Shown here one piece after another: positions 443 to 25,783 of a DNA stretch of 27,044 bases. Under the pieces are notes generated by a model. The model saw only the letters and a list, made by a program, of their open reading frames with translations, did not search any database and was not told the DNA's origin. Positions within the stretch are counted from its first letter, which is position 1; every line of letters starts with the position of its first letter. This stretch comes from an uncultured Actinomycetes bacterium (GTDB taxonomy: Bacteria > Actinomycetota > Thermoleophilia > Solirubrobacterales > Solirubrobacteraceae), in NCBI GenBank assembly GCA_937888775.1, contig CALAQT010000080.1, forward strand, positions 1 through 27,044, written 5' to 3'. The position numbers and the translations under genes are program-made.

Positions 443-2156
443 ATGGCGCTGGACCGCATCACGAAAAGCCTCCTGGAAGACTTCGCGGCGAGCGAAAGCC
501 TCGCGCAGATGGGCGAGCCCGAGGCCTTCGAACGGTTTGCGACTTTCGCTGGAGCACCCCGAGACGTTCAACGTCGAGGACCTGATCGTTGCCGGCGGGA
601 ACGACCTTGCGATTGACGGCTCGCGATCATCGCGAACGGCAGCCTCGTGACCAGCCTGGACGAGTTCGAGGATGTGCTCGAGGCGAGCGGCTACATCGAG
701 GCGACGTTCGTTTTTGTCCAAGCGAAGACTGCGACAAGCTTTGACTCAGGCGAGATTGGCAACTTCTGCGCGGGGGTCCGCGACTTCTTCCCCGAGGAAC
801 CGACCTTGCCCCGGAACGACGCGATCAAGCAAGCCGAGGCGATCCAGCGCGCGATCTACGACAACAGTGCCCGGTTCCGGCGCGGCAACCCGCACTGCCG
901 CCTGTACTACGTGACCGCGGGTCGCTGGACTGACGACGTTCACCTGACCGGCCGGGTGTCGACCGAGGTTCAAGCCCTCGAAGCGCTCGGGCTGTTCGCG
1001 CCCGGAGGGGTCGACTTCCTGCCCGTCGATGCGGATCGCCTCCAGACGCTTTACCGCGACACGCAGCACCGGGTTTCAAGCGAGTTCCAGTTCCCGACTC
1101 GGACCGTGCTGCCTGAGATGGAGCACGTCACTGAGGCCTACCTCGGCGTCTTGCCTGCGAAGGAGTACTTGAAGCTCATCGTCGACGACGCGGATCAACT
1201 ACGGCGGTCCCTGTTCTACGACAACGTCCGCGACTTTCAAGACTTCAACGTCGTGAACGAGCAGATCCGCGAGACGCTCGCCTCGGATGAGCGCAACGCC
1301 TATCGCGCTGCTGAACAACGGCGTCACGATCGTGACGCGCTCGTTGACGACGACCGGCAACAAGTTCGTCATGGAGGACTACCAGATCGTCAACGGCTGC
1401 CAGACGAGCCACGTGCTGTACCGCGAGCGGGACAAGATTACCGATGAGGTCTACGTCCCCATCAAGGTCATCGCCACCGCTGACGACGACCTTACGAATG
1501 CCGTGATTCGCGCGACGAACTCGCAGACCCCGATCGGCATGGACGACCTGCAGGCCCTTTCGGGCTTTCAGAAGAGGCTTGAGGCGTTCTACGCAACGTA
1601 CCAGGACCGGCATCGGCTGTACTACGAGCGCCGGTCGAAGCAGTATGAGGGCGTCCCGGGCGTCGAGAAGGTCCGGGTCGTCACGCGCGGCCTGCAGATC
1701 CGCGCGTTCGCTTCCATGTTCCTCGACGAGCCCCATCGCGCAGGTCGCTACTTCGCCACGCTCTTGAAGGAGATCGGTGGTCGCATCGTCGCCGACGACC
1801 ACAAGCTCGAGATGTATTACGTCAGCGCCTTCGCGCAGTACAGACTCGAGTTCCTTTTCCGGAATGGCCTCCTCGATGTCACGTACAAGCCGGCGCGATA
1901 CCACCTCTTGATGGCGGTCCGGCACGCCGCCATCGGCGTCAACCTTCCCCCGTTCAACTCGCGGAAGATGCAGCAGGCTTGCGCCGAGCTGATCACGCTC
2001 TTCCACGATGAGCGGGCGGAGAGGACAGCCTTCGCCAAGGCAGCCGCGGCGATCGACACGGCCGTCGGCGGCGAAGTCCTCGATAGGGACCTCGTCCGGA
2101 CGCAGTCGTTCACAGACGCGGTCGCCGACGCGGTCGCAACGGACACGGGCTCCTAG
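443..2156 (+). pseudogene. AIPR-family (abortive infection phage resistance) protein gene, three frameshifts
   Basis: Joined across frames, the translation matches the AIPR family, proteins associated with abortive phage resistance. The N-terminal part starts MALDRITKSLLEDF. It continues in a second frame from about 549 (LEHPETFNVEDLIVAGGNDLAIDG) and returns to the first frame at about 620 (LAIIANGSLVTSLDEFE, then FVFVQAKT). The core motifs are FYDNVRDFQ, VNEQIRETL, LLNNGVTIV and YQIVNGCQTS. The frame changes again near 1302, inside the core, where removing one A (1302) would restore NAFALLNNG. The C-terminal part runs intact to 2156. Total length, about 570 residues, suits the family. The three breaks are small indels (near 548, 620 and 1302), so this is either a recently dead gene or a victim of sequencing errors. 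The start at 443 is the ATG preceding the first recognisable segment; no strong ribosome site is visible. Confidence 0.75.
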
Positions 2157-2251
2157 CTTGGACATCGATCGTTCCTCTCGATGAGAAGCTCGCGTTAGCG
2201 GACGCTGCGTGAGCTGCTCGGGGTGCCAGAAGGCTGCCGAAGGAAGCTCCA

Positions 2252-2299
2252 GCTACGGACTAAACTACGGACTAAGCTACGGATCGTGAGTCTGTAGCT
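2252..2299. repeat. Tandem 12-bp iterons with a GTAGC inverted pair
   Basis: Two tandem 12-bp units, GCTACGGACTAA and ACTACGGACTAA, are followed by a third partial unit, GCTACGGATC (2252-2285). The last unit also forms an inverted pair, AGCTAC at 2275-2280 with GTAGCT at 2294-2299. Iterons next to a replication/mobilisation gene are typical of plasmid or conjugative-element origins. The function here is inferred from position only. Confidence 0.6.
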
Positions 2300-2339
2300 G
2301 AACCCGTCCCCGCCCCCGCTGCATCTGGGTTTTGGTGAG

Positions 2340-2398
2340 GGACCCGAGCCAGACTACCCGCCCTCCACGAGGTCATTCGGGTAGTCTGGCTCGGGTCC
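2340..2398. repeat. Perfect 21-bp inverted repeat with 17-nt loop
   Basis: The arms at 2340-2360 and 2378-2398 are exact reverse complements (left arm begins GGACCCGAGCC, right arm ends GGCTCGGGTCC). The spacer is 2361-2377. No T-run follows, so a simple intrinsic terminator is unlikely. Placed between iterons and a replication-relaxation-like gene, it is a good candidate for an origin-of-transfer or origin-of-replication hairpin; a structured RNA is an alternative. Confidence 0.7.
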
Positions 2399-2487
2399 AA
2401 GTATTTGTATCTGTCAGCGGGGGTGGGGGTGGGACATCAGCAGTTTTGGTCTGGAATGGCTATCGGTTTCAGATGGTGGTTTGGGTG

Positions 2488-2517
2488 GTCAAAGTCAAAG
2501 TCAAAGTCAAAGTCAAC
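2488..2517. repeat. GTCAAA hexamer run
   Basis: Four exact GTCAAA units (2488-2511) are followed by GTCAAC (2512-2517). It is locally AT-richer than the surrounding DNA and lies about 65 bases before the next gene start. Together with the iterons and hairpin it makes 2252-2517 an origin-like region. Apart from these repeats, no gene is supported between 2157 and 2580. Confidence 0.65.
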
Positions 2518-2580
2518 GGCAACGTCGGGTGAGGCGATGCGTGCTGGGGGCGCTGGGGTGATGCTGCGCGCGGTCGGCTT

Positions 2581-3342
2581 GTGGGGTGGGCGGTGACCGA
2601 GGAGGCGGCGCGTCGGATGGGGTCGGCGGGTCGCGTGGGGTGGCGCGCGGGGCCAGCGTCGCTCGAGGGGCTCGTCTGGCTGGCGCGGGTCGGCCCTGCT
2701 TCAGTCGAGGCGTGGGGTTGCGCGATGGGCTGGAGTCGCTCGGTGGGGTTCTCGCACGCGCAGCGGCTAGAACGCGAGGGGTGGCTGGCGAGGTATCCGA
2801 TGCTCCGCGGGCACGGCTCGTTGCTGGTGGCGACGAGTTCCGGGGTGCGGATGGCTGGCGTGGCGGTCTCGCCAGCGAGACCACCGGCACCGACGTGGTG
2901 GGCGCACCTTGATGCGTGCGGTTGGGTCGCGGCGTGGCTGACCGTCCGCGGTCGCGTGATGCAGGGCTGCCGCGAGGTGGACGAAGATCCGTCGTGGCGC
3001 GGGAACATTCGCTGGCACGACGGCAAGGGCGCACACCGCGCAGGGCATCGGCCCGACCTCGCGGTGATCTTGGACGGCGTGCGATTCGGCATCGAGGTCG
3101 AGCTCGCACGGAAGTCGCTCGAACGGCTGACGGCGATCGTCGGCCTGCACGCCCGCTGGCGCGCAGCCGGGCAGACCGCCGGCGTGATCTACGTATGCGC
3201 GGATGAGGCGGGCGCCGCAAGGGTGCGGGACATCGCCCGCCAGCGAGGACTGAGCACCGGCCGCGGCGGTGGCCTGCGCATCGAGCTACTTCAGAACATC
3301 GAGCGGGAGGCGCGCGCAGCTCGCAGGCCACAAGCCGCGTAA
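2581..3342 (+). CDS. Replication-relaxation-like protein with PD-(D/E)XK-like core
   Basis: A 253-residue protein. The N-terminal half resembles a DNA-binding winged-helix arrangement (residues about 28-100: LEGLVWLARVGPASVEAW, then AQRLEREGWLARY). The C-terminal half holds HRPDLAV, then IEVELARKSLERL. This gives D159, E172, E174 and K178, which fit a PD-(D/E)XK nuclease-type core. This arrangement resembles actinobacterial 'replication-relaxation' proteins, commonly found beside coupling proteins in conjugative elements. Here it is followed 44 bases later by a VirD4-like gene, and origin-like repeats lie directly upstream. It may act as an origin-binding or relaxase-like protein; that role is inferred. 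The GTG at 2581 is used; GTG 2593 or ATG 2617 are alternatives. Confidence 0.65.
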   Translation: MGWAVTEEAARRMGSAGRVGWRAGPASLEGLVWLARVGPASVEAWGCAMGWSRSVGFSHAQRLEREGWLARYPMLRGHGSLLVATSSGVRMAGVAVSPARPPAPTWWAHLDACGWVAAWLTVRGRVMQGCREVDEDPSWRGNIRWHDGKGAHRAGHRPDLAVILDGVRFGIEVELARKSLERLTAIVGLHARWRAAGQTAGVIYVCADEAGAARVRDIARQRGLSTGRGGGLRIELLQNIEREARAARRPQAA

Positions 3343-3347
3343 GCATA

Positions 3348-3381
3348 TGTAGCGGTAGGTTGCCGGGTGTAGCGCTATGGT
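3348..3381 (+). promoter_or_regulatory. Putative promoter/operator of the coupling-protein gene
   Basis: TGTAGCG occurs twice as a direct repeat (3348-3354 and 3368-3374). The second copy overlaps the palindrome TAGCGCTA (3370-3377), next to a TATGGT box (3376-3381). GTAGC half-sites recur at 2275-2299 and 16838-16867. The promoter role is inferred from position immediately before the coupling-protein start. Confidence 0.35.
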
Positions 3382-3386
3382 TGCGA

Positions 3387-5180
3387 ATGATGTTGCGTCC
3401 GACCGTCGTGCTCCTCGATCTCGCGCTGGTGATCGCGCTCGGGGCGCTCGGATGGCTGGGAGCGTGGCTGCTGCGTCGCCGGACGACTCTGTCGGTGAAG
3501 AACCTCTACCTCGCCGCGGCACTGACGGGACTCGCGCTCGGGGTCGGCATCGCTGCGCGAGCCTGGCCGGTTGTGCTGCTGCTCGCGCCGATCGCCGCGC
3601 CGGCGTTCGCGGGAGCGCTCTCCGGGCGTCGCTGGCGCCTCGCGGATCTCGGCGCCGGCGAGGAGCTGCGCCAGCATGAGCTCTCCCGCAGATGGATGTG
3701 GCAGTCGGCGCCGGACAGACGTCCAGGGGAGCGCAGGTACATCGCCTCACAGGGCGAGATCGTTCACGAACGACCCTGGCCCGACGACGTCGAGTACGTG
3801 CCCATGACCGGGCAAGCCGATCGTGGCGCCAAGCTGCCGCTCGGCGAGGGGCAGCACGTGTTCGAGTGCGGCGGCACCGGGACAGGTAAGACCACGACCG
3901 CGCGCAGGCTGCTCGCCGCACGGACGCTCGCGCACGGCGCTGCCGCGCTGCTGATCGACCAGAAAGGCGACCCCGAGGACGAAGAGCAGCTACGACGGAT
4001 CGCGGCGGCCGCCGGCCGGCCGTTCGTGCTGTTCGACCCGCGCGACCCGGACACCGATCGGTGGCAGCCGTTGTGGGGCGCTCCGGCCGATGTCGCGGCG
4101 CGCGCGGTCGAGCCGATCAAGAAGTCAGAGCCCTACTACGCCGACGTGCTGCGCCAGCACCTGAACCTGATCGTCGAAGTGCTCCACGCCGCGGACCGCT
4201 GGCCGCCGAGCTTCCCCCTGCTCGTCGACGCCGCCCGCTCAAACCGCTACGAGACGATCTGCGATCTCGCCACCGGACTCGGCAACGAGCACCGGATGCT
4301 CAAACGCCGCGTCGAGGAGCACGCCGAATGGGTCAGCTCGCGCGACGGCAAGAAAGACCTCGCCGGAGGGCTGGTGCGGCTCGAGCTGGTGATGGGCGCC
4401 GCGTGGCGCCAGGTGCTCACGCCAAGGCTCACGCCGGACGGCGACACCGTCGCCGTCCGGCTCGTCGAGGCGATCCAAGCCGGCGCGGTCGTGATGTGGC
4501 GCACCTACGCCGACGACATGCCCGACGAGGCCGCCGCGATCACAGTGCTCGCGCTCTCCGACCTGCACGCCGCGGCCGGGCGGGCCGGGGCGCCGTGGAC
4601 GCTGATGCTCGACGAGTTCGGCGCGGTGATCCACATGGCCGCCGCGCGCGGAATCGCGATCCTGCAGCGCGCCCGCTCGCATCACGGGCAGGTGATCGTC
4701 ATCACCCAATCCGCCGCCGACATCGAAGCGCTGTCACAACAACCAGGGCTGCTGCCCTCATTGAGCGACAACTTCTCGGCGTTCGTCGCGCACCGCCAGA
4801 CCGCGCCCGAGACCCGCGACTGGCTCGCGAAGCTGATGGGCACCCGCGCGATCTGGCAATCAACCGACCAAACACCCGGACACACAGGGATGCCGACAGG
4901 GTCGGGCAGCCGCCGGCGGGTCAGGGAGTTCCGAATCGGCTCAGACGTCTTCGCGACCCTCGGCAGAGGCGAGGCGGTCATCTACACCACGCTCGGCCCC
5001 GATCCAGAGCGCGCGTCCATCCTGCCCGCCCGTCTCCCGGCCGACAATCCCAACAGGATCGGGCACGGCGACCGGCACGCAGCCGAGATCGCCGTGCACC
5101 CCGAGGAAACGCTCCCGATCGCCATGCACCACACCCAGCCACCCGTCGGCGAGACCGACGTCGACACGAACGATGTCTAG
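3387..5180 (+). CDS. VirD4/TraG-type conjugative coupling ATPase
   Basis: About 597 residues. Coupling proteins are inner-membrane ATPases that bring the relaxase-DNA complex to a type IV secretion channel. Two hydrophobic segments near the N-terminus (about residues 4-25 and 35-70) are followed by a Walker A motif, GGTGTGKT, at residues 162-169. LLIDQKGD lies near 191, a Walker B-type LMLDEFGAV near 406-414, and VITQSAADIEAL, typical of the TraG/TraD family, near 438. ATG 3387 (or 3390) is preferred over an upstream TTG at 3360, because that start would fall inside the repeat-rich promoter. It follows the replication-relaxation-like gene and overlaps the NERD gene by eight bases, which suggests one operon. 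The frame is intact throughout. Confidence 0.88.
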   Translation: MMLRPTVVLLDLALVIALGALGWLGAWLLRRRTTLSVKNLYLAAALTGLALGVGIAARAWPVVLLLAPIAAPAFAGALSGRRWRLADLGAGEELRQHELSRRWMWQSAPDRRPGERRYIASQGEIVHERPWPDDVEYVPMTGQADRGAKLPLGEGQHVFECGGTGTGKTTTARRLLAARTLAHGAAALLIDQKGDPEDEEQLRRIAAAAGRPFVLFDPRDPDTDRWQPLWGAPADVAARAVEPIKKSEPYYADVLRQHLNLIVEVLHAADRWPPSFPLLVDAARSNRYETICDLATGLGNEHRMLKRRVEEHAEWVSSRDGKKDLAGGLVRLELVMGAAWRQVLTPRLTPDGDTVAVRLVEAIQAGAVVMWRTYADDMPDEAAAITVLALSDLHAAAGRAGAPWTLMLDEFGAVIHMAAARGIAILQRARSHHGQVIVITQSAADIEALSQQPGLLPSLSDNFSAFVAHRQTAPETRDWLAKLMGTRAIWQSTDQTPGHTGMPTGSGSRRRVREFRIGSDVFATLGRGEAVIYTTLGPDPERASILPARLPADNPNRIGHGDRHAAEIAVHPEETLPIAMHHTQPPVGETDVDTNDV

Positions 5181-5890
5181 CCAGGTGAGCTCGAGATCGC
5201 CAAGACGGACGTCCGAAGTGGACGGCGGGTCGGCCGGCCGAAGCGCGGTCCGTGAGTACGAGCGCCGACGTGCGCAGCGCGAGGCACGCGCCCGAGCGCG
5301 CCTCGGCCCGCTCGGCCAGGCCCTTGCGCGACTGATCGGAGATCCGCAAAGCACCCGCGCGTGGAAGCAAGGCGCCGATGAAGAGATCCGCGTCGCCCGC
5401 CAACTCGCCAGGCACCTGAGCGGGCCGCCACGTCATATTGCTGCACGACCGGCGGATCCCAGGCCGCGGGCGAGCGAACATCGACCACATCGCGATCGGC
5501 CCCGGTGGGATCACCGTGATCGACACCAAGAGTGCCCGCGGACGACTGCGGATCGAGATGCACGGCGGCTTCCTCTCCCCACGCCGCGAACTGCTGCTCA
5601 TCAACGGACACGACCGCACCCAGCTCGTAGACGGGCTCGAACATCAGATCGAAGCCGTGCGAACCGCGATCGCCGAGCTCACCATCGGCGAGCTGGACGT
5701 TCGGGGCGCACTCTGCTTTCCGAACATCGAGGGACTACCGCGACTCGGGCAACTGACCATGCGCTCAGGAACGATCGCGATAGACGCGCCTCGGGGCGTC
5801 GCGAAACTCGCGCGACGCCAGGGCCCGATCACGGTCGACTTCATCGAGCGAATCGCCAGCAATCTGACGCAACGGTTCCCGCCCGCCTGA
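5173..5890 (+). pseudogene. NERD-domain (nuclease-related) protein gene, one frameshift
   Basis: Starts at ATG 5173, overlapping the stop of the coupling-protein gene. The first frame gives a basic, Arg-rich N-terminus and GADEEIRVARQLARHLSG. The second frame, from about 5432, gives VILLHDRRIPG, NIDHIAIGPGG and VIDTKSARGRL, the hallmark NERD sequence with a D...DxK nuclease-like signature. Deleting one C in the GGGCCGCCAC stretch (about 5421-5430) joins the two as SGRHVILLHD. The repaired protein would be about 238 residues. NERD proteins are nuclease-related and often occur on mobile DNA; the substrate here is unknown. The break may be a sequencing error. A separately translated downstream piece could start at TTG 5438. 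Confidence 0.7.
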
Positions 5891-6560
5891 GCAGAACATC
5901 GAGCCTGACCAGCGTGACGAGACATGCAGACTCGGCGCGCCATCAATCCGGGGCGCTCGGGATGCGGGTGATCCACGCGCCCACAGTCGTCGCCGAGCGG
6001 GGTGCGGTGTGGCCGTGGACCGCTGCGCGGTCGTGACTCTTGGCCGGGAGTCGGCGAAGCGGGACGACGCGCGATTGCCTTGCACCAGGAGCGGCGACCG
6101 GCCGACGACGAGCTAGTGATCACAATCGTGGCCAGGCAGTCGCGGGCGAGTCGGCGAGTAGACGCCGCGCGCTTGGTCGGAGCGATCGTGCGATGTGCCG
6201 GTGGTCAGCGCGGCTCCGGGCGATTGGATCGTCGCCAAAGGAGGCGTCCGCTCCGAGGCCGTCCAGATCGCGAAAGCAGTCGTTCGCGAGGTGCGCGGTT
6301 TCCGCGCATAGGGGGTCCGCCGAGCAATAACGCCCGAGTACCACCGCAGGTCGAATGCGGGTCTTTCCAGCCTCGGCTGCGCGAGTCTTTCGCACCAGAT
6401 CCGTCCACCCACGTCCCCTCGGACGCCCTTCTGCAAATCGCGCGAAGGAGCGGTGACAAGGAGGTCGGCCCTAATTCTTGTCCCCGCGAGTGAGGACTTC
6501 GTTAGCGACGGTGTCGACGTCGTCGTTGCCGTCGCCGTACCTTTCGTGAGCGACCCCTGT
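5891..6560. other. Intergenic region with degraded coding-like repeat
   Basis: No intact gene is supported. It contains a copy of a dispersed repeat (6080-6200, listed separately). The frames that cover the rest are Arg-rich and featureless. A longer start for the next gene (GTG 6453) is possible but would add an unrelated 36-residue leader. Confidence 0.5.
6080..6200 (+). repeat. Dispersed repeat copy P
   Basis: The segment 6080-6137 aligns with the reverse strand of 15145-15204 with two one-base gaps and only a few substitutions; the shared start is TTGCACCAGGAGCGGCGACC. Both can be read as a peptide containing ADDELVI-IV. The following GTAGACGCCGCGCGC (6158 onward) recurs in diverged form near 23040. 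It looks like a decayed remnant of a repeated coding element. Confidence 0.55.
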
Positions 6561-7508
6561 ATGCGAGCCGATCGATCAACCGAGGAAGAGGTCATGGCAG
6601 TCCTCGACGCTTTCAATGAAGCGCTCGAACGCCGCGATCTCGACGCTACGCTGGCCTTGTTCGTCCGGCATCCTGACGTGACGCTCGTTGGATCTGAGGA
6701 AGGCGAGACGGCGACGGGGCCATCTGAACTTCATTCATTCTTCGAGCGGATCTTCGGCGGTGAGTGGGAGGTGATCCTGGCCGATAACGGCAGCCGCTAC
6801 GGTACCGTGGCGGTGGCCCAGCGCTGGGCGGAGCGCTTGCCGTTGCGGATCGTCAGCGTCGGCGGTCCGCCCGATGCGGGCCGCGCCCGTAACGCCGGGG
6901 CGGCGGCCGCGAGGGCTGACCTACTCGCGTTCTGCGACGGAGATGACGAGGTCTCGCCAGGCTGGCGGGGGGCGTTGTTGGAGGCCCTGCGGGACGCCCC
7001 GCTGGTCACCGGGCCGATCGACTGCCGACGGCTCAACTCGGCGAGAGCGGCGAAGGCACTGGACGGCGTCATGCCCAGTGGCCCAGAGTGGTTGCCGAGA
7101 GTGACCGCTGGCGGGAACGTCGCCGTCCGCCGGGCCGTGCTCGAGGCGGTGGGGGGCTTTCCCGAGGACTACGGTCGCGGGGAGGATACGGCCTTCGGCT
7201 GGAGCGTGCAGCTGGCTGGTTACCCCTTGGCGGTCGCGCCGGCGGCCCTCGTCTATTACCGCCTGAAGGGCGATTCGCGCCGCGCGATGTTCCAGCGCTT
7301 CTACCGGTACGGTCGGGCGAGCGTCAAGCACTACCGGAGCTTCCGGGAGCGCGGGATGCCGCGGTCACCCGCCCGTGACGTGGTCTACGACTGGGCGACG
7401 ATCCCCCTCAACTTCCTGCGGGGTAGGTCGTACTTCGCCGCCCAGATGGCCGGCTGCCGAGTGGGTCGGCTGGTTGGCTCGGCCCGGTCAAGAATCCTGT
7501 ACCTGTGA
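6561..7508 (+). CDS. Chimeric protein: SnoaL-like N-terminus fused to a GT2 glycosyltransferase
   Basis: A 315-residue ORF. Residues about 6-62 (EEEVMAVLDAFNEALERRDLDATLALFV, then VTLVGSEEG) resemble the first half of a SnoaL/DUF4440-type NTF2-like domain. At residue about 64 (FGGEWEVILADN) the sequence becomes a family 2 glycosyltransferase nearly parallel to the next gene: GRARNAGAAAARADLLAFCDGDDEVSPGW, GGFPEDYGRGEDTAF and VYYRLKGDSRRAMFQRFYRYGRASVKHY. Compared with that paralogue it lacks the first ~35 GT residues (ISVVLAVRNMASTIESQL), which form the first strand of the nucleotide-sugar fold. The enzyme may therefore be inactive. ATG 6561 is chosen; ATG 6594 and GTG 6453 are alternatives. 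Its stop overlaps the next start (GTGA). Confidence 0.75.
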   Translation: MRADRSTEEEVMAVLDAFNEALERRDLDATLALFVRHPDVTLVGSEEGETATGPSELHSFFERIFGGEWEVILADNGSRYGTVAVAQRWAERLPLRIVSVGGPPDAGRARNAGAAAARADLLAFCDGDDEVSPGWRGALLEALRDAPLVTGPIDCRRLNSARAAKALDGVMPSGPEWLPRVTAGGNVAVRRAVLEAVGGFPEDYGRGEDTAFGWSVQLAGYPLAVAPAALVYYRLKGDSRRAMFQRFYRYGRASVKHYRSFRERGMPRSPARDVVYDWATIPLNFLRGRSYFAAQMAGCRVGRLVGSARSRILYL

Positions 7509-8356
7509 GCGGCCCGCCGGAGATCAGCGTCGTGCTGGCCGTGCGGAACATGGCAAGCACGATCGAGAGCCAACTCGCCGCCCTCTCCCGCCAGGACTTC
7601 GACGGCGACTGGGAGCTGATCGTCGCCGACAACGCCAGCACCGACGACACTCTTGCCGTCGTCGAACGCTGGAGCGCGCGCCTGCCGCTGCGGATCCTCG
7701 CCGCCGGCGGCCCTCCCGACACGAGCCGAGGCCGGAACGTCGGGGCGGCCGGCGCGCGAGCGCCGCGGCTGGCCTTCTGCGACGGAGACGACGAGGTCTC
7801 GCCGGGCTGGCTGCGGGCGATCGCGGAGGCGCTGCGCGATGCTGCGCTCGTCATCGGGCCACTCGACTACCAGCGGCTGAATTCGCCCCAGGCGGCGGCC
7901 GTCCTCGAGAGTGGGGCGCCGGGGACCTCGGCCTGGCACCTCGAGTCGGAGGGCATCGGCGGGAACTGCGGCGTCCGGCGTGAGGCGTTCGAAGCGGTGG
8001 GGGGCTTTCCCGAGGACTACGGTCGCGGGCAGGACACCGCATTCTTCTGGCGGGCGCAACTGGCCGGACACCGCTTGGCCCTCGAGCCAAGGGCGATCGT
8101 CCACTACCGGTTGAAAGGCGATTCGCGCCGCGCGATGTTCCAGCGCTTCTACCGGCACGGTCGCGCAAGTGTCAAGCACTACCAGCGGTTCCGGGAGCAC
8201 GGGCTGCCCCGCTCGCCCGCCCGCGACGTTGTGTATGACTGGGCGACCGTCCCGCTCCAGTTGCTGCGCGGCAACTCCTACCGGGCGGCGCAGCAGGCCG
8301 GCTGGCGCCTAGGCCGGCTGGTCGGCTCAGCCAGCTCGAGCGTGCTCTGCCTGTGA
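7505..8356 (+). CDS. GT2-family glycosyltransferase
   Basis: A 283-residue GT-A enzyme. It begins with the typical family 2 strand (EISVVLAVRNMASTIESQLAAL), followed by LIVADNASTDDTL, SRGRNVGAAGARAPRLAFCDGDDEVSPGW (nucleotide-sugar/metal site around CDGDDE), GGNCGVRREAFEAVGGFPEDYGRGQDTAF (acceptor-side ED motif) and a basic C-terminus. It would transfer a sugar from a nucleotide donor onto a surface glycan or lipid precursor; the sugar is unknown. The GTG start overlaps the preceding stop and its own stop overlaps the next GTG, so translation is probably coupled. Two blocks are identical at the nucleotide level to the upstream gene (36 nt at 7994-8029 and 39 nt at 8117-8155). Confidence 0.85.
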   Translation: MSGPPEISVVLAVRNMASTIESQLAALSRQDFDGDWELIVADNASTDDTLAVVERWSARLPLRILAAGGPPDTSRGRNVGAAGARAPRLAFCDGDDEVSPGWLRAIAEALRDAALVIGPLDYQRLNSPQAAAVLESGAPGTSAWHLESEGIGGNCGVRREAFEAVGGFPEDYGRGQDTAFFWRAQLAGHRLALEPRAIVHYRLKGDSRRAMFQRFYRHGRASVKHYQRFREHGLPRSPARDVVYDWATVPLQLLRGNSYRAAQQAGWRLGRLVGSASSSVLCL

Positions 8357-9507
8357 ACTCGATCCTCGCGCCGGATGTCGCTCTCTGCACGATCTGCGAC
8401 TGGCCGTATCTCGCCCGACTGCTCGTGCTAGTCCGATCGCTGCAGCGCGTGGATCCCGCGCTGACCCTGCACGTCGTTTGCCTGGACGAGCCGACCCGAC
8501 GCTACCTGGAGAAGCGACCGGGAATCATCGCGACTGCGGTCAGCGAAGTCGAACGCGGCGATCCCGAGGTACTGGCCACGCGACGCTTCCGCACGCAGAC
8601 GGGGTATGCCTGGACGCTCAAACCGGCCATCTGTCTGCACGTGCTGCGCAGTCGACCTGACGCCGGCGCGGTGCTGTTCCTGGACGCCGACCTGATGTTC
8701 TTCGACTCGCCCGAGCCCATCTTTGATGAGCTCGCCCGCGGGTCGGTGCTGCTGGTGCCCGAGCGCCACGTAGCACCAGCCGCCTGGACCCGGGCCGGAG
8801 GCCGGCCTGACCTGGGGACCGCGGCCGGAGAGACCTGGGGCTTCTACAACAGCGGCACGGTGGGCTTCCGGCGCGACCGCGCCGGGCTCGCGGCGCTCGG
8901 TTGGTGGAGGGAGCAGTGCCTGTCCGGGGGGCAGGACTGGGGCGCGCCCGGAGCCAGAGGCGACCAGTGGAACCTGAACCCGGTCCCGAATCGGTTCGGC
9001 GGCGTGCGGATCATCGACCATCCCGGCGTGGGACTCGCGCCGTGGAACGCGCGGGGCACCACGCTCGAGTGCCGCGGCGCTCACCTGCTGGCCGACGGCC
9101 GGCCCGTTGTCTTCTACCACTTCCAGTCGCTGCGACTGCGCCACGAGAGCGTCGTGAGCCGCTTAACGGGGTGGCGCGGCAACGATCTCGGCCGGCTGCC
9201 CGGAGTGACGCCACCGCTGCGAGCGACGATCTACCGGCAGTGGCGGCTGTCAACGGGCGAGCGGGAACTGCTGTGGTGGCCGTATCTTCGGGAGCTCGCC
9301 GCAGCCGTGGCTGAGATCCGCGGCGAGCAGCCGGCGTGGGCGGACACGCTGAGGCGCAATACCGCGGGAGAGATCGCCGGCGACGTCGTCAGCGAACTGA
9401 GCTGGCGTACCTACCTTGCAGCCGGGCGGCTGCTGCCCCCACCGGCGCGCCGAGCCGTCTCGTCACTGCGCGCGCGCGCGCGTCAGCGCTTCACCACACG
9501 TGCCTAA
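8353..9507 (+). CDS. GT8-like nucleotide-sugar transferase, full length
   Basis: A 384-residue protein of the GT-A type with a DxD motif: VLFLDADLMFFDSPEPIFDEL (about residues 112-132). Other features are LCTICDWPYLARLLVLVRSL at the N-terminus, YAWTLKPAICLHVLRS, GFYNSGTVGFRRD and GVGLAPWNA, then VVFYHFQSLRLRH and an Arg-rich C-terminal helical region. The pattern suits glycosyltransferases that process surface polysaccharides, of the broad GT8/GT32/PF03407-like class; the exact family is uncertain. A truncated paralogue lies at 12941-13723. The start GTG overlaps the previous stop. The gene end overlaps by 17 bases with the opposing GT2 gene. Confidence 0.75.
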   Translation: MNSILAPDVALCTICDWPYLARLLVLVRSLQRVDPALTLHVVCLDEPTRRYLEKRPGIIATAVSEVERGDPEVLATRRFRTQTGYAWTLKPAICLHVLRSRPDAGAVLFLDADLMFFDSPEPIFDELARGSVLLVPERHVAPAAWTRAGGRPDLGTAAGETWGFYNSGTVGFRRDRAGLAALGWWREQCLSGGQDWGAPGARGDQWNLNPVPNRFGGVRIIDHPGVGLAPWNARGTTLECRGAHLLADGRPVVFYHFQSLRLRHESVVSRLTGWRGNDLGRLPGVTPPLRATIYRQWRLSTGERELLWWPYLRELAAAVAEIRGEQPAWADTLRRNTAGEIAGDVVSELSWRTYLAAGRLLPPPARRAVSSLRARARQRFTTRA

Positions 9508-10414
9508 AGGCCTCCGCCGTGCCGAGCGCCAGGCCACGGGCTTGAGCGACGGCCAGCCGCCGGTGCAGCGGCGAGCGAGTCCTGATCGCGCCGGCGAACA
9601 TGAAGGCCACGCCCCAGGCCAGCCGCAGCCAGAGCCAGGCGCCGCCCGCAAGGTCGTCGGTACGCAGATGCTTGATCGCACAGCCGGCGTTGCCGGCCAG
9701 ATAGCCGGCGTGTAGCCGGGTCAGATCGGTCTCCGTGCGCCACTGGCGGTGCGTGACGCGCAGTTCGGGGGTCAGGTAGGCGACCCCGCCCGCCCTCAAG
9801 AAGCGGTAGTTGAAGTCGAGGTCCTCGCCCGCTGGGAACGGGCGCGTCCCAGTGCCGAGGCGCTCATCCCACCCACCGAGTCGCTCCACCACCCGGCGCT
9901 GGACGGCGAAGCTGGCGCCCTGGCCGATCGCGAGCGGGGGCGTCCGCCAACGGCCGCTGCGAACTCGCGGCCAGCTCACATGCTGCACGCCGACCACGGT
10001 CAGATCGGCTGGTGACCGATCACCGCTCTCGAGCATTCCGCTGACGAAACCGGCGGCGGGATGCCTGGCGCAGACCGAGGCGAGCCGCGCGGCCCAGCCC
10101 GGACCAGGCAGGCAGTCATCGTCGAGGAAGGCGACCCAGTTCGTCCTGGCCCGCCGCACACCGAGGTTGCGGGCACGGGACACACCCTGCTGGTCATCCC
10201 GGATGACCGTGATCGGGGGCCTGGAAGCTGCGGCGGAAACCCGGGCGGGGCGGCGCCGACCCTGATCGACGACCACGATCTCAGCGACTGACTCGGCGGA
10301 TTCTGCCGCGAGCGCGTCAAGCAACTCGCCCAGCATCTCGGGTCGGTCCCGAGTACAGACGACGATGGTCAGGAGGGAGAGCGGGCCTTCGGACTCGGGC
10401 CGCCGATGGGTCAA
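9491..10414 (-). CDS. GT2-family glycosyltransferase, opposing strand
   Basis: About 307 residues. Motifs: LLTIVVCTRDRPEMLGELLDAL (first strand), EIVVVDQG, DDQQGVSRARNLGVRRARTNWVAFLDDDCLPGPGW (DDD metal site), GQGASFAVQRRVVERLGGWDERLGTG, FPAGEDLDFNYRFLRAGG and a C-terminal hydrophobic stretch (WLWLRLAWGVAFMFAGAI) that may associate with the membrane. This is a complete family 2 domain. The start is uncertain: TTG at 10414 leaves room for a divergent promoter before 10472, while GTG 10459 would add 15 residues and an upstream extension to 10681 would run through the dehydrogenase remnant. It converges on the GT8-like gene with a 17-base tail overlap. Confidence 0.75.
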   Translation of the reverse strand: MTHRRPESEGPLSLLTIVVCTRDRPEMLGELLDALAAESAESVAEIVVVDQGRRRPARVSAAASRPPITVIRDDQQGVSRARNLGVRRARTNWVAFLDDDCLPGPGWAARLASVCARHPAAGFVSGMLESGDRSPADLTVVGVQHVSWPRVRSGRWRTPPLAIGQGASFAVQRRVVERLGGWDERLGTGTRPFPAGEDLDFNYRFLRAGGVAYLTPELRVTHRQWRTETDLTRLHAGYLAGNAGCAIKHLRTDDLAGGAWLWLRLAWGVAFMFAGAIRTRSPLHRRLAVAQARGLALGTAEAFRHVW

Positions 10415-10471
10415 CCGCGCGAGGATGCCCGTATCGTATGCCCGACCCCGGTTCGGCACGAGGAGCGCGAG

Positions 10472-10769
10472 ATGCGAGTGGGCATAGTCGGACGTGGACG
10501 TGTGGCCAAGCCGTCGAGCGCCTGTTCGAGCACTGTGGCCACGAGGTGGTCGCCTGAGACAAGGGCCCCGGGGCGCCCTACCCGCCGCGGCGCTGGAGTC
10601 ATGCCTCTTCGCCGTCGTGTGCGTTGGAACGCCCCCGGACGATGACGGCGGCGCCGATGTGTCGGAGGTCATCGAGGCCATCTATCAGCTGCCCCTCGAC
10701 CGGGGTGAGCCGCTCCTATCGTCAACGTCGGCGGAGTTCAGCAACGGACACGGTCGCACTTGCTCATAA
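10472..10769 (+). pseudogene. UDP-sugar 6-dehydrogenase-like remnant
   Basis: Begins with a good ribosome site (AGGAG at 10461) and ATG 10472: MRVGIVGRGRVAKP, a Rossmann-type NAD-binding start. After a frame change near 10510 it reads VERLFEHCGHEVVA, then a stop (TGA 10555-10557) exactly where Trp is expected (VVAWDKG), then DKGPGAPYPP. After a second frame change near 10583 it reads AALESCLFAVVCVGTPPDDDGGADVSEVIEAIY, the CVGTPP signature of the UDP-glucose/GDP-mannose dehydrogenase family. Only about 95 residues remain of an enzyme normally above 400, so it is dead or a severed fragment. Such enzymes supply uronic acid donors to neighbouring glycosyltransferases, which fits this cluster. Confidence 0.7.
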
Positions 10770-11052
10770 AACGAATCGCCTGCGCTTCCCTGGTGCGACG
10801 AGCGGCCACCTCCCGGAACCGAATGGCATCCGAAGTGTTCGCGGCGCCTTGGCAACTGCGACGGCGATCTCCGCTGAGCGCCTCATCTCGCGGCGCCCGG
10901 GCCCCCGCAAGCCACCAGGGTCGAGACCCCCTTTCCCCGCGCCGCAGGCATCTCGTCGCTGCACGCCGCGCACCTGCTCAGCGCGGAAAGCGTGCATTTC
11001 GCAGGCGATCGCTTTCGCCTCTGCTGACCCACTATCGCGACCTCCTCCGGCC
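10770..11052. other. Intergenic region with possible 3' end of a lost gene
   Basis: No complete gene. One plus-strand frame ends with a protein-like tail (SSLHAAHLLSAESVHFAGD, stop near 11025) that could be the C-terminus of a deleted gene. I cannot assign it to a family. An in-frame extension of the next gene through this region is not supported. Confidence 0.35.
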
Positions 11053-12084
11053 ATGTCCGGCATGAATCGCCCGACGAGAACGTCGTCCTCCCCCGACCTC
11101 AGCGTCGTGGTCGTCGGCGCGTCTGGGATGGCGACGATCGGCCGTACGCTCGGCTGCCTCCGCGCGCAGACCGCCGCGGACCGGATCGAGGTGCTCATCG
11201 TCACGCCGTCCGCCGGCGAGATCGACCGCGACGCCCTCGGCGCGGGGCGCTTCGCCGCGCTGCGGGCGGTCGAGGTCGGTCCGATCACCAGGCGCGGGCA
11301 CGCGGCGGCGGCCGGTATCCGCGAGGCGACGGCTCCGGTCGTGGCACTGCTCGAGGACCACTCGTATCCGGAGCCGGGCTGGGCAGCCGCGCTGCTCGCT
11401 GCACACACCCAGCCGTGGGCCGGCGTGGGGCCGTCGGTCGAGAACGCCAATCCCGGCACGGCGATCAGCCGGGTCACCTTCTGGTTCTCGTTCGCCGCGA
11501 TGAGCGGGCCGCAGGAGGCCGGGACTCGGACGCTGCTCCCGTGGCACAACACCGCGTACAAGCGCGAGATCCTCACAGGCTATGGCGAGCGGCTCGGCCC
11601 GCTCCTGGCGTGGGAGGGCGACCTTCAGGACGACCTCCTCGCCCGCGGCCACCAGCTCTACCTCGCACCCGCCGCCCGCACTCACCACCTCCAAGGCTCG
11701 GCGTTCACGGCCGCTCTCGGGATCCACTTCCAGTGCGGCCGCATCCTCGGCGGCCAGCACGCCGAGAAGGAGCGGCTGCCCTGGTGGCGGCGGGCGGCCT
11801 ACGCCGCGGCGATGCCGGTGCTCCCGCTGGTGCACATCCGTCGGGCTGCTCCGGAGCTCCACCGCATGGGCGTCACCACGCGCGACATGGTCGCCGACGG
11901 ACCCACGCTCCTGACGATGCTCGCCGCGATGGCCATCGGCGAGGCCGTCGGCTATCTCAGCGGGGTCGGCGACGCGACGGACCGCCTACAGCGGTACGAC
12001 CTGTACCGGGCGGCCCATCTTTCGCGGCGCGAGCGCCGGGTGGCGGCGGCCATGGCGCAGACCACCGAGCCGACCGCCGCGTGA
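11053..12084 (+). CDS. GT2-like glycosyltransferase
   Basis: About 343 residues from ATG 11053 (ATG 11062 also possible). Family 2 features are DLSVVVVGASGMATIGRTLGCL, IEVLIVTPSAGEID, ATAPVVALLEDHSYPEPGW (acidic LLEDHS in place of the usual DDD), NTAYKREILTGYG and WEGDLQDDLLARGHQLYLAP. A hydrophobic C-terminal segment (LLTMLAAMAIGEAVGYLSGV) suggests membrane association. The metal motif departs from the usual DxD, so activity is likely but less certain. The stop overlaps the GTG start of the next gene. It opens the second glycosyltransferase operon of the window. Confidence 0.75.
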   Translation: MSGMNRPTRTSSSPDLSVVVVGASGMATIGRTLGCLRAQTAADRIEVLIVTPSAGEIDRDALGAGRFAALRAVEVGPITRRGHAAAAGIREATAPVVALLEDHSYPEPGWAAALLAAHTQPWAGVGPSVENANPGTAISRVTFWFSFAAMSGPQEAGTRTLLPWHNTAYKREILTGYGERLGPLLAWEGDLQDDLLARGHQLYLAPAARTHHLQGSAFTAALGIHFQCGRILGGQHAEKERLPWWRRAAYAAAMPVLPLVHIRRAAPELHRMGVTTRDMVADGPTLLTMLAAMAIGEAVGYLSGVGDATDRLQRYDLYRAAHLSRRERRVAAAMAQTTEPTAA

Positions 12085-12944
12085 CGACACTCGTGCGCTT
12101 GTCGGTGATTATCCCGGTCTATCGGGCGGACGTGACGTTGCCCGGTGTGCTCGCCGCGCTCCGACCTCAGATCGTGCGTGGAGCCGAGGTGGTAGTGGTG
12201 GACAGCTCGGGGCTCGAGCACGCCGCCCAGCTCGAGCGGGCGCACCCGTGGCTGCGGGTCGTCGGCTTGCCCGATCGAGTTCTCCCCGGCGAGGCGCGCA
12301 ACATGGGCGCCCGGGCTGCTCGCGGGTCGCGGCTGGCGTTCCTGGACGCCGATGCGGTTCCTGGGGAGAGCTGGTTGGCTCGCCTCCAATCCGGGCTCAA
12401 CGGTGGTGGAGCCGTGGCCGTGGCGGGCGCCGTTCACAACGGCACGCCCCGCGACGCGATCGGGACCACCTCCTACCTGCTCGAGTTCTCCGAGTGGACG
12501 CCCAAGCGGCGCGGCGCGCCATTGCACGGAGCTACGTGCAACCTGCTCGTCGAGCGCTCCGCGTTCGACGCGGCCGGAGGGTTCTGCGAAGACATCTGGC
12601 CCGGCGAGGACACGGTCCTGACCCTACCCTGGGGCCGCGCCAAGCGCCTTGTGTTCGCGCCCGACGCTCCGGTCTGGCACCTGAACCGGACCAGGCTGGT
12701 CGACTTGCTGCGCCATCAATACCGGCTCGGTCGCTCGTTCGCGGCCGTGTGCGACCTGGTGGACTTCCCCCACCGCCGCTTCAGCCATTGGCCGCTGCTG
12801 ACGATCGCGCCGGCGTTGCGATTCGGTGCACTGGGCATGCGGCTGTTCGGTCAGCCGCCGCTGCTCCGCAAGGCCGCCGGCGTAAGTCCGCTGCTCGCTG
12901 TCGGCCTGGCCGCCTGGACAGCCGGGGTCGCGGCCGAGCGATGA
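12081..12944 (+). CDS. GT2-family glycosyltransferase
   Basis: A 287-residue enzyme beginning with the typical VRLSVIIPVYRADVTLPGVLAAL, then EVVVVDSSG, GEARNMGARAARGSRLAFLDADAVPGESW (DAD metal site), HGATCNLLVERSAFDAAGGFCEDIWPGEDTVL (GEDT acceptor motif) and a hydrophobic C-terminal half with two possible membrane segments. It starts at GTG 12081, overlapping the previous stop, and ends with ATGA shared with the next start. This is translational coupling within a GT2-GT2-GT8-like operon that mirrors 6561-9507. Confidence 0.85.
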   Translation: MTTLVRLSVIIPVYRADVTLPGVLAALRPQIVRGAEVVVVDSSGLEHAAQLERAHPWLRVVGLPDRVLPGEARNMGARAARGSRLAFLDADAVPGESWLARLQSGLNGGGAVAVAGAVHNGTPRDAIGTTSYLLEFSEWTPKRRGAPLHGATCNLLVERSAFDAAGGFCEDIWPGEDTVLTLPWGRAKRLVFAPDAPVWHLNRTRLVDLLRHQYRLGRSFAAVCDLVDFPHRRFSHWPLLTIAPALRFGALGMRLFGQPPLLRKAAGVSPLLAVGLAAWTAGVAAER

Positions 12945-13723
12945 ACCAGACCTCGTCGCCGCCATCGCCCGGCGTGCGCCCCCCCGAGCTAGAACTCTGC
13001 ACAATCTGCGACCGGCCGTACCTACCGCGGTTGCTGGCGATGGCCATGTCGCTGAGGCGAGTGTGTCCGTCTCTGCGTCTGCATGTCGTGTGCCTGGACG
13101 ACGCCACCACGGGATACCTGCGAGAGCGTGCCGGCATCGTGACGATTCCGCTGGCCGAGCTCGAGCGCGTCGATTCCGCTGTGGCGGCCACCCGCTCTTC
13201 GCGCAGCCGCAAGACGTATGCGTGGACGCTGAAGCCGGCTTGCTGCGTTCACGTCCTGCGCACCCGCAGCGATGCCGAGGCCGTGGCTTTCGTCGACGCC
13301 GACCTCCTGTTCTTCAGCTCGCCGGATCCCATCTTCGCCGAGCTAGCCCGGGCATCGGTCCTGCTCGTACCCGAACGCCCCGAGCCGCCAAGCGCTTGGA
13401 CCGATGCGGGTGTCCGACCCGAGCTCGGAACCACGCGAGGCGCGACCAAGGGCTTCTACAACAGCGGGTTGGTCGCGTTCCGACGTGATGTCGACGGGCT
13501 CGCGGCGCTTCATTGGTGGCGCCAGCGGTGCGTCGAATCCTGCGAGCCGGGAAGTGTGGCTGGACAGCACGGCGACCAATGGCACCTGAACGAGGTTCCG
13601 GCGCTGTTCGCGGGCGTGCGCGTGATCGAGCATCCAGGGGTCGGGCTGGCGCCATGGAACGCGCACGCCGCCAAGCTCGGGCTACGTCGCGGTCAGCTGC
13701 TGGCCGACGGCCACCCCGGCTGA
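12941..13723 (+). CDS. GT8-like transferase, C-terminally truncated paralogue
   Basis: A 260-residue protein closely parallel to the 384-residue protein at 8353-9507: LCTICDRPYLPRLLAMAMSL, YAWTLKPACCVHVLRT, FVDADLLFFSSPDPIFAEL (DAD), GFYNSGLVAFRRD, HLNEVPALFAGVRVIEHPGVGLAPWNA and LLADGHPG, then stop. The paralogue continues for about 125 residues (PVVFYHFQSLRLRH and beyond), and no equivalent is visible downstream. The catalytic half is intact but the C-terminal region is lost, so it may be non-functional. The break lies about 100 bases before the insertion sequence, and the DNA beyond that element does not continue the gene. The truncation therefore predates or is independent of that insertion. 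Confidence 0.7.
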   Translation: MNQTSSPPSPGVRPPELELCTICDRPYLPRLLAMAMSLRRVCPSLRLHVVCLDDATTGYLRERAGIVTIPLAELERVDSAVAATRSSRSRKTYAWTLKPACCVHVLRTRSDAEAVAFVDADLLFFSSPDPIFAELARASVLLVPERPEPPSAWTDAGVRPELGTTRGATKGFYNSGLVAFRRDVDGLAALHWWRQRCVESCEPGSVAGQHGDQWHLNEVPALFAGVRVIEHPGVGLAPWNAHAAKLGLRRGQLLADGHPG

Positions 13724-14973: not shown

Positions 14974-15502
14974 AAGCGCGTTCCGAGGTCTGTCCGGTGC
15001 GATCGCTTTCGTCGTCGCGCCGCCTCGTGCCGCGCGAGTGCTTCGGCGACGGACGAGTCGCGCGGGGCCGCGCCGGCGGGCATCGTGGCGGACGACCGCA
15101 TTCGTCGACGACGCTCCGGCCGATCGCTCGGCGAGCGGGTGATCGCATGGCCAACGATTGCGATCACGAGCTCGTCGTCGGCCAGGTCGCCGCTCCTGGT
15201 GCAAACCAGCCGCGTCTGAGAAGCCTGCGACCGATCAGCGAGGCAGCCGGTCCGGAACGTTGGCAGCACGACCCGGCCACAAGCGCTCGACCTGTCCTTG
15301 GGCTAGCTGATGCGGAAGTCGCCGACGACGAGATCGTTGCGCCCGCTAAGAACGTGGATCAGTTGTCGGTTCTGTTCGATGGCGCTCCTGGTCGTTCGCA
15401 TAAAGCGACGGTGGTCGACGCGTTCGCTCGTGGCTGCGGGCGCGGCCCGCCTGCGGACGGTTTGGGCCGGACTCCGCCAAGGAGTGACGGGCGAAGCTCG
15501 AT
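14974..15502. other. Intergenic region with degraded coding remnants
   Basis: No gene with a clear start and full domain is supported. The reverse strand holds a protein-like tail (HRRFMRTTRSAIEQNRQLIH, then NDLVVGDFRIS and a stop near 15306), which may be the end of a lost gene of unknown family. A dispersed repeat copy occupies 15145-15204. Confidence 0.4.
15145..15204 (-). repeat. Dispersed repeat copy Q
   Basis: The reverse complement of 15145-15204 aligns with 6080-6137 with two one-base gaps; the first 20 bases are identical. It reads LADDELVIAIVGHA on the minus strand. The resemblance continues more weakly toward 15100. Confidence 0.6.
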
Positions 15503-15787
15503 CTACGTGGACCGCGCGCGTAGGACGAGTAGCGCGGAGTATTCGAAGAAGAGCTCCGTCCACGGCCGCGGCGTCTGCAGCAGCTTCGTTCCTGCGTGCT
15601 CTTGTGAGCCGTTCTGCATCGAGTTGAACGAGACGTGCAGCTCGTCGCCCTCGTCGAGGTGCTCACCGAGGATCACGGCCATCCGGTCGATCAGCTCCTG
15701 CATCGACGGGGCGCTGACCGAGAACACGCGCACTCCCAGGTGCTCGGAGCCGACCGTCCCGTCCGGGAGCTGCGCTGGCTCGCTCAT
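15503..15787 (-). CDS. Small protein of unknown function (operon gene 4)
   Basis: 94 residues starting MSEPAQLPDGTVGSEHLGVR. I do not recognise a family. The centre (SMQELIDRMAVILGEHLDEGDELHVSFNSMQ) looks like a mixed alpha/beta fold with an acidic stretch, followed by WTELFFEYSALLVLRARST. The ATG overlaps the stop of the preceding gene (ATGA at 15784-15787). That places it as the last member of a leftward four-gene operon led by an HTH protein, and supports this start over an upstream in-frame extension to 15997. Confidence 0.65.
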   Translation of the reverse strand: MSEPAQLPDGTVGSEHLGVRVFSVSAPSMQELIDRMAVILGEHLDEGDELHVSFNSMQNGSQEHAGTKLLQTPRPWTELFFEYSALLVLRARST

Positions 15788-16017
15788 CGCGTTGCGCCGG
15801 TGAGCGCCTGAGTGACGGCCTTGCGCGCGTCTGACACCAATGGCGTCACGACACGCTCCACACCATGCTCCACGTGAGCGAGCGACGACGACGGTCCCCG
15901 CCCGAACGTTCGAGGTCCGGAGCGAAACGCGGTCGTCAACGCCAGCGCTGCGAACGCAAATAGCAGCAGCGGGAACAGCATCCGCAACAGCCGCCACGCG
16001 AGGAACAGGCGCAGCAT
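15784..16017 (-). CDS. Small membrane protein of unknown function (operon gene 3)
   Basis: 77 residues. One hydrophobic segment (residues about 2-31: MLRLFLAWRLLRMLFPLLLF, then AFAALALTTAF) is followed by a polar tail with SLAHVEHGVERVVTPLVSDA. A single-pass or signal-anchored protein is likely, perhaps facing the outside. The family is not recognised. It lies 15 bases after operon gene 2 and overlaps gene 4 by four bases. Confidence 0.6.
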   Translation of the reverse strand: MLRLFLAWRLLRMLFPLLLFAFAALALTTAFRSGPRTFGRGPSSSLAHVEHGVERVVTPLVSDARKAVTQALTGATR

Positions 16018-16032
16018 GCCGATCCCTCGCGA

Positions 16033-16470
16033 TCAGCTCGCCCGTCGGCGACTAGCCGTTTGCGTGTAGCCCAGCTCGATTTCGCCCGCGAGCTCCCGAG
16101 CGACCTCGGAGAGCTCCGCGAAGGCGCGGGCGATCGCGCTGAGCGCGACGCCCTCCAGCGCGGAGCCGAGCGTTCCGACCGCGGCGTCAAAGCGCTCCCA
16201 CAGGTCGTTCGGGCCGGGCCGGGGGCCGCCGCGGCGCAGCTCGTAGGAGAGCTGCATCGTCCGCGCGTTCTGCCGCGAGCGCCAGCCGAGACCGAGCGAG
16301 TCGGCGTACCGAAAAGCAGCGGCCTCCTGCTCACTGGCGTCGGCGATATCCCGAACGCGGGCGGCAAAGCCATCATTCGGGAGCGCCTCGGCGCTCGCCT
16401 GCAGCGCCGCCTCCCACCGGCCATCGGCCATGCGCAGCTGCTCGATCGCGACCTGGGCGTCGTCGCTCAC
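16033..16470 (-). CDS. Helical protein of unknown function (operon gene 2)
   Basis: 145 residues from a GTG immediately abutting the stop of the HTH gene. The sequence is strongly alpha-helical and Ala/Glu-rich: VAIEQLRMADGRWEAALQAS, FAARVRDIADASEQEAAAF and VALSAIARAFAELSEVAREL. There is no membrane segment and no recognised domain. The zero-base junction implies co-expression with the HTH protein. A structural, partner or regulatory role in the mobile element is possible but inferred. Confidence 0.6.
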   Translation of the reverse strand: MSDDAQVAIEQLRMADGRWEAALQASAEALPNDGFAARVRDIADASEQEAAAFRYADSLGLGWRSRQNARTMQLSYELRRGGPRPGPNDLWERFDAAVGTLGSALEGVALSAIARAFAELSEVARELAGEIELGYTQTASRRRAS

Positions 16471-18458: not shown

Positions 18459-18490
18459 TCGTGGCTTGGGGCGAAGCGAACGCTGATCGT

Positions 18491-25416: not shown

Positions 25417-25443
25417 TGTAAGCACAAACAAAGGGGTCGCTTT

Positions 25444-25758: not shown

Positions 25759-25783
25759 GCCCCGCGACCGCCGGCGCTTTCTG

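Follow-up and report, generated by a model that had tools for sequence, protein, structure and literature searches.

The stretch of 27,044 nucleotides analysed here (the window), from an uncultured Actinomycetes bacterium, probably holds the module by which an integrated element of Solirubrobacterales-like bacteria, either conjugative or mobilizable, processes its DNA, with a nested inverted repeat at 2303-2433 as its origin of transfer (oriT) and a gene at 2581-3342 encoding a divergent relaxase of the MOBC/Replic_Relax kind. An oriT is the best explanation of the region because genes for a nuclease and for a type IV coupling protein (T4CP) accompany a conserved, pairing and asymmetric site, which is located on integrated elements of which some lack the enzyme. 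Three types of repeat are present upstream of the relaxase-like gene, all inside 2253-2523: a block of 12-bp iterons, a perfect 21-bp hairpin and a run of GTCAAA hexamers. The features of the region are the following:

2253-2300, no strand assigned: iteron block made up of a pair of 12-bp direct repeats followed by a third, shorter copy, with an inverted copy at 2289-2300
2303-2321, plus strand: left arm of the outer inverted repeat, C-rich, 84% complementary to 2415-2433
2340-2360, plus strand: left arm of the inner hairpin, 100% complementary to 2378-2398
2352-2371, plus strand: one-strand motif of 20 nt, GACTACCCGCCCTCCACGAG, running from the left arm into the loop; proposed recognition or nick region of the relaxase, the nick position being a prediction
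2361-2377, plus strand: loop of 17 nt, from the inverted-repeat analysis
2378-2398, plus strand: right arm of the inner hairpin, pairing fully with 2340-2360
2415-2433, plus strand: right arm of the outer inverted repeat, G-rich, 84% complementary to 2303-2321
2488-2523, plus strand: hexamer run of four GTCAAA, one GTCAAC and one GGCAAC; candidate binding site of the relaxase, with a like offset in 4 of 23 loci
2581-3342, plus strand: putative MOBC/Replic_Relax-like relaxase with a winged helix and a PD-(D/E)XK domain; start possibly at 2593
3360-5180, plus strand: TraG/TrwB-type coupling ATPase (T4CP); TrwB_AAD_bind 31.7 bits (cut-off 20.5), TraG-D_C 30.9 bits (cut-off 22)

The iterons (2253-2300), the hairpin (2340-2398) and the GTCAAA run (2488-2517) had been listed in a first-pass annotation of this DNA, and all three were recovered in these places. 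The iteron units CTACGGACTAAA and CTACGGACTAAG occupy 2253-2276 and are followed by the shorter third copy; at a spacing of 12, 13 of 14 matches were obtained, a score reached by 0 of 100 shuffles. The perfect arms of 21 of the inner hairpin compare with a longest arm of 14 in 20 first-order Markov shuffles of the whole 27-kb window. The outer arm pair had been absent from the first-pass list; as this C-rich/G-rich inverted repeat encloses the hairpin, the object is a hairpin within a hairpin. The outer repeat scored better than shuffles in 22 of the 24 loci compared (G325 was left out). Four GTCAAA and the GTCAAC fill 2488-2517 and GGCAAC follows at 2518-2523, with 18 of 18 matches at period 6, which 0 of 300 shuffles equalled, and the run starts 117 bp past the end of the conserved motif. 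As regards a terminator, the letters 3' of the hairpin (AAGTATTTG) contain no T run; the terminator scan covered only loops of 3-8.

Relatives of the region were found in nine loci by a scan of GTDB contigs, titled Solirubrobacterales, Solirubrobacteraceae, Actinomycetes or Conexibacter, and by searches of genomes: matches were present in 25 of 299 genomes of the class of a Conexibacter genome (E up to 0.001) and in 29 of 232 genomes of its order (E up to 1e-15). A well-matched set of 16 loci was defined by a gene match of at least 90 bits and at least 250 bp of upstream sequence, and 460 bp upstream of the gene match was searched. L064 (166 bp upstream) and the second piece of L071 had been set aside from the 50 rows before this count; L006 and L007, within the 16, are near-copies. 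An inverted repeat with arms of at least 12 was observed upstream of the gene in 15 of the 16 loci vs 3 of 102 control windows of the same loci, and arms of at least 14 were observed in 14 of the 16 vs 0 of 102. Among the weaker rows (below 90 bits), 6 of 32 had arms of at least 14. The remote relatives L023-L043, of which only the upstream sequence was searched, showed no conserved hairpin except L036. Remote relatives thus do not all share the hairpin, which is a trait of this clade and a few of its neighbours.

The first-pass expectation that the repeats would recur beside homologous genes was thus borne out for the hairpin, and for the iterons, whose architecture recurs in roughly half of the loci: among periods 9-17, period 12 scored best in the sequence before the hairpin for 11 of 23 loci (binomial 1e-5 on the assumption that all are independent). 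The letters of the iteron unit vary from locus to locus and single loci are mostly non-significant, the score being reached by at most 5 of 100 shuffles in 5 of the 23. It did not hold for the GTCAAA run. Hexamers of the GTCAA type, 99-136 bp past the right core arm, were found in the window, G361:C460, G003:C243 and G402 only; G235:C43 has a CAGCAAC run at their position.

The letters of the hairpin arms drift while their pairing stays. This was observed when 25 hairpins were placed in register, with no gaps, by the GAC of their left arms; near-copies in G370, G219:C83 and G404 were left out. In the seven pairs outside the GAC core, 172 of 175 cells are Watson-Crick, 1 is G-T and 2 are mismatches; for six of these pairs the count is 147 of 150, compared with a mean of 75.5 and a maximum of 102 when right arms were dealt to other loci. 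Because 19 of the 25 hairpins had been found by arm length, the analysis was repeated on an unbiased set of 14 hairpins found by the nine-letter core alone. Of its cells, 97 of 98 are Watson-Crick (permuted mean 50, maximum 73) and the remaining one is G-T, and the set contains 12 different outer 7-mers.

Such covariation suits RNA as well as single-stranded DNA, and the nested repeat might act as a structured leader or a small RNA that controls the transfer operon. It precedes the operon in the same orientation, and 2290-2450 folds strongly with RNA parameters (-102.3 kcal/mol, z-score -9.95); mobilization of SGI1 is described as requiring a small RNA encoded by the element itself (PMC9299015). 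Hairpins exist without a downstream gene, however, and no Rfam family reached the gathering level in a scan of 1900-3700, the 7 matches up to E 5 being microRNA hairpins far under their cut-offs; an RNA-family identity was rejected on that score. In general, an RNA helix is expected to tolerate more G-U than is seen here. Judged by this expectation, the near-absence of G-T (1 in 175 cells, 1 in 98 in the unbiased set) speaks for DNA over RNA, and we regard the RNA explanation as unlikely.

The same drift bears on the idea that the repeat is a mere operator, or a parS-like partition site, for the winged-helix protein, a small ParA partner or an HTH_17 protein. The iteron block with its inverted copy just upstream and the MarR-like character of the winged helix would suit such a site. 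Operators keep their letters, whereas the arms here co-vary with pairing kept (12 different 7-mers in 14 hairpins), and this role is highly improbable for the nested repeat; the iterons may serve as an operator.

One strand of the site carries a motif of its own, which runs over 20 aligned columns from the left arm into the loop. Its form is GACTACCCG-CCCYCCACGT in the main clade, GACCCCGCC-CGCCCTACGTG in the G157 type and GACCACCCG-CCCTCACCATG in G301. The consensus at the start of the loop was present in 15 of 15 core-pattern hairpins of the 232 genomes vs 0 of 13 chance hairpins in viral contigs, and a reversed-pattern control matched in 1 of the 232 genomes. The core types cluster on the protein tree, from which 2 of 35 rows were left out, with 7 changes vs a shuffled mean of 16.3. 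The 13 chance hairpins are IMG/VR contigs that match the core pattern; they were rejected as candidates, none having the loop consensus or a relaxase-profile match. Hairpins of the GACTAC type stand beside relaxase-like proteins at L113:9813-9862 and L110:3267-3301, where exchange or convergence of the site is possible. Several core-pattern hairpins, all different, were counted in single genome bins (four in G003, L068-L071; three each in G361 and G219), which reflects either several transfer origins per host or mixed bins.

The protein of 2581-3342 may truly start at the GTG at 2593, as a homologue such as P0002 begins at VTEEA. It has an N-terminal, MarR-like winged helix and a C-terminal domain that was modelled with a restriction-endonuclease fold; the best Foldseek matches of the model are the CARF nucleases Can2, Cdn1 and VC1899. 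Both the PD-(D/E)XK-like core and the nuclease fold proposed in the first-pass annotation were thereby upheld. In 41 aligned sequences (the window protein and 40 of 120 listed homologues), E172, E174 and K178 do not vary, and D159 is kept in at least 90%; in catalytic-domain numbering, D58, E71, E73 and K77 are invariant in 9 diverse sequences. A protein search gave 593 homologues at E up to 0.001, and no relative was found in IMG/VR or PLSDB. With respect to HUH relaxases, the window protein matched no relaxase Pfam family up to E 1. Its sole NCBIfam match was to NF041423, the MobC replication-relaxation model, at 28.6 bits vs a cut-off of 200; 40 of the 41 family members match this model below its cut-off. 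Two proteins of one genome, G301:C1:3666207 and G301:C1:2962432, match the profile of the present family (4.7e-9 and 5.8e-8) and also exceed the cut-off of PF13814 (35.9 and 31.8 bits), which connects the two families by homology through intermediates. The only hairpin-linked protein that scored against PF13814 was that of G352 (24.1 bits, cut-off 25.3). Because the curated cut-offs of NF041423 and PF13814 are not reached, the protein is called MOBC-like and not a member; it appears to function like a MOBC relaxase and is linked to MOBC/Replic_Relax via intermediates.

Related hairpins are carried by mobile elements. In G157, a span of 51.3 kb from a tRNA-Thr gene to a 52-bp copy of its end contains ParA, the hairpin, the relaxase-like gene, a T4CP over several cut-offs, SSB, ParB, ArdC-N and an integrase, together with a TrbC pilin (31.9 vs a cut-off of 27.9) and a VirB4-like ATPase (TIGR02746, 5.8e-33, under cut-off). 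This 51-kb element may be composite, since its integrase is not at the far tRNA-Thr repeat but about 21.6 kb inward of it. An integrative mobilizable element of 6.5 kb in G301, in which no T4CP match was found, carries the hairpin, the relaxase-like gene, an HTH_17 protein and an integrase between 50-bp copies of a tRNA-Cys end. The gene follows downstream of 10 of the 15 genome hairpins; 2 hairpins lie 192 and 241 bp before a contig end and 3 are without a relaxase-like gene on the available sequence. Downstream of the L068 hairpin only about 1.4 kb is available, and a relaxase gene may lie further on. In the best of the three enzyme-less cases, G219:C72, the hairpin is located on 10.0 kb of DNA flanked by 31-bp copies of a tRNA-Glu end; this may be a remnant, as its integrase is split. 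The same genome has two further hairpins, one with a relaxase-like gene and a T4CP. The relaxase-less element of L115, which has further short repeats of its att region, may be a decayed one, its integrase being split into two open reading frames (ORFs). No repeat of 12 or more of the tRNA-Leu end was found in L113.

With iterons present, and with an upstream ParA gene and a Rep-like gene with HTH_36 and DnaA_N (L002) in several loci, the region could also be read as a replication origin, either vegetative or a single-strand origin for second-strand synthesis after transfer, the nuclease being the replication initiator. Precedent for this is offered by MOBC enzymes, which are discussed as multifunctional, replication included (PMC5714925). 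Yet in L069, L113, L114 and L115 the same hairpin occurs with an HTH_17 protein and a tyrosine integrase and with no ParA match, the coupling ATPase points to transfer and the iterons are not clear in all loci; a replication origin seems very unlikely. The HTH_36 and DnaA_N protein at L002:4303-5700, upstream of ParA and slightly below both cut-offs, is itself a likely replication initiator, and some of these elements may therefore be plasmids.

If the nested repeat is an oriT, the winged helix of the 2581-3342 protein would bind the region, perhaps at the GTCAAA run, and, once the hairpin is single-stranded or extruded, the metal-dependent PD-(D/E)XK domain would nick one of the strands within or close to GACTACCCG-CCCYCCACGT. 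The nicked strand would next be passed by the coupling ATPase to a type IV secretion channel. More tentatively, the oriT may be read by structure, the enzyme recognising a nested shape, cruciform or hairpin, and not a fixed sequence. The letters read would be only the loop-proximal GAC-Y-x-CC core and the start of the loop, the inner and outer arms could drift freely provided that pairing stays, and the nuclease-type enzyme would cut the loop strand of the extruded structure. Integrated relaxase-less elements would, by this possibility, borrow the structure and be moved in trans by co-resident elements.

Several observations weigh against an oriT and its relaxase. No upstream arm of at least 14 was found in 26 of the 32 rows below 90 bits, though several of them adjoin a coupling ATPase, and 1 of the 16 well-matched loci, L072, a frame with an internal TAG, is without the hairpin. 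The hexamer run is present in only 4 of 23 loci. The motif departs from the protein tree in L113 and L110, which carry the GACTAC form on a long separate branch, and L061 carries GACCCC among hairpin-less relatives. The window protein has no PF13814 match and scores far below the NF041423 cut-off, and the type IV secretion genes are remote matches, those of the window being the weakest. Finally, cutting of the hairpin by the protein, the strand and position of the nick, binding by the winged helix and transfer are what we infer for this clade.

Further genes of the window are the following:

5438-5890, plus strand: NERD-domain protein; homologues come after the T4CP in L004 and L007 too
25390-25758, plus strand: VirB2/TrbC-like pilin candidate; its own Pfam match is E 0.09 only, and the L057 homologue is over the TrbC cut-off
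25784-27044, plus strand: membrane protein without a family match, VirB6/TrbL-like by position only, running off the window; 29% identical to the ORF beside the L057 pilin

The two ORFs at 25390-27044 share 34% and 29% identity with their counterparts in G157, and the window is therefore probably an element of the same sort whose end has been cut off. Its inventory for a conjugative element comprises the relaxase-like gene, the T4CP and the weak pilin candidate, and no integrase was found before the cut end. Against viral and plasmid collections, the coupling ATPase matched only three Bdellovibrio plasmid records, at 23-25% identity. Directly upstream of the repeats, an AIPR-family gene (647-2156) is split over two overlapping ORFs in different frames, 647-1447 and 1287-2156, the second with a Pfam AIPR match of 8.2e-33; its position is that of ParA and a small gene in ParA-type relatives. 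At 16033-16788 on the minus strand, an HTH_17 gene and the ORF following it are each homologous to one half of a protein of relatives, which is a single ORF of about 240-270 aa in L069, L113, L114 and L115. The counterpart adjoins the hairpin upstream in L063, L069, L110, L113, L114 and L115; the window pair lies 13.6 kb from the hairpin in the opposite direction, and no hairpin with arms over 9 was found near it (15301-16200 searched). A run of glycosyltransferase-like ORFs, the first with a Pfam match, occupies 6453-13723, with the transfer genes on one side and, on the other, an IS1595-type transposase with apparently broken frames; run and transposase are probable cargo and insertion. At 17949-20584, a 169-aa ORF with a repeat-rich 'LGGTSYA..' start is 36% identical to an ORF of the G157 element (L057 15622-15849), and in both a large secreted-looking protein adjoins it.

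Within conjugation, the nuclease-type relaxases are a branch about which little is known. For pAD1 TraX, a covalent DNA intermediate was not seen (PMC12857230), and the way in which the strand is led and re-joined by such enzymes is therefore open. For this soil-actinobacterial clade, the probable origin can now be narrowed to about 130 bp, and a motif, naturally covarying forms and carriers without a relaxase are at hand, which makes nick site, structure dependence and mobilization in trans directly testable, and the nested hairpin can be used as a marker for conjugative elements in this actinobacterial group. No description of the clade with its conserved nested palindrome, or of oriT-only elements carrying it, was found in the literature consulted, nor did the open-access literature searched yield one of conjugative elements in this group.

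The transfer-origin role proposed in the first-pass annotation fits the covariation, the mobile elements and the coupling ATPase, which was correctly placed next to the nuclease-like gene and has both its domains over the cut-offs. Its suggestion of such a relaxase, non-HUH and nuclease-type, as a new equivalent was not supported, as relaxases of this fold are already known: the MOBC enzymes pAD1 TraX and CloDF13 MobC are described with an N-terminal winged helix and a PD-(D/E)XK domain (PMC12857230, PMC5714925). MOBC elements with a VirD4-type coupling protein of their own are described (PMC5704250), and the five direct repeats to which TraX binds lie about 70-120 bp downstream of nic (PMC12857230); PMC6499999 is a further source for the MOBC precedent. 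In Patescibacteria, MOBC was the commonest relaxase class found (58 of 109; PMC12102498), and the available texts of PMC7117660, PMC11104534 and PMC12102498 contain nothing contrary to a MOBC-like oriT. The present system shares with MOBC the two domains, the T4CP of its own and direct repeats that lie some way from the proposed nick region. It differs in lacking a PF13814 match, in scoring far under the NCBIfam cut-off, in having the hexamers in only 4 of 23 loci and in a nested double palindrome kept by covariation across the clade, a comparison that did not extend to the oriT and residues of pAD1 TraX.

The PD...E-x-E layout is shared with Replic_Relax (PF13814), as are the two G301 proteins that match both families, and L124 has PDLIVCQGDRRVAIEIEFATK where the window protein has PDLAVILDGVRFGIEVELARK; unlike Replic_Relax proteins, the hairpin-linked ones, G352's sub-threshold score apart, gave no score with that model. 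The PD-(D/E)XK domain resembles that of the CARF nucleases Can2, Cdn1 and VC1899 by Foldseek, and VC1899 has a winged helix beside it, but here there is no CARF domain and the neighbours are a coupling ATPase and integrases. The relaxase-less carriers recall oriT-mimic plasmids and integrative mobilizable elements such as the staphylococcal pWBG749 mimics, described as relaxase-less elements with the oriT of a conjugative family (PMC8136818); the present ones differ in being integrated Solirubrobacterales elements of putative mobilization, with one bounded case, whose integrase is split. Set beside these systems, the region probably represents a diverged clade of nuclease-type relaxases with a nested, covarying palindrome as its oriT.
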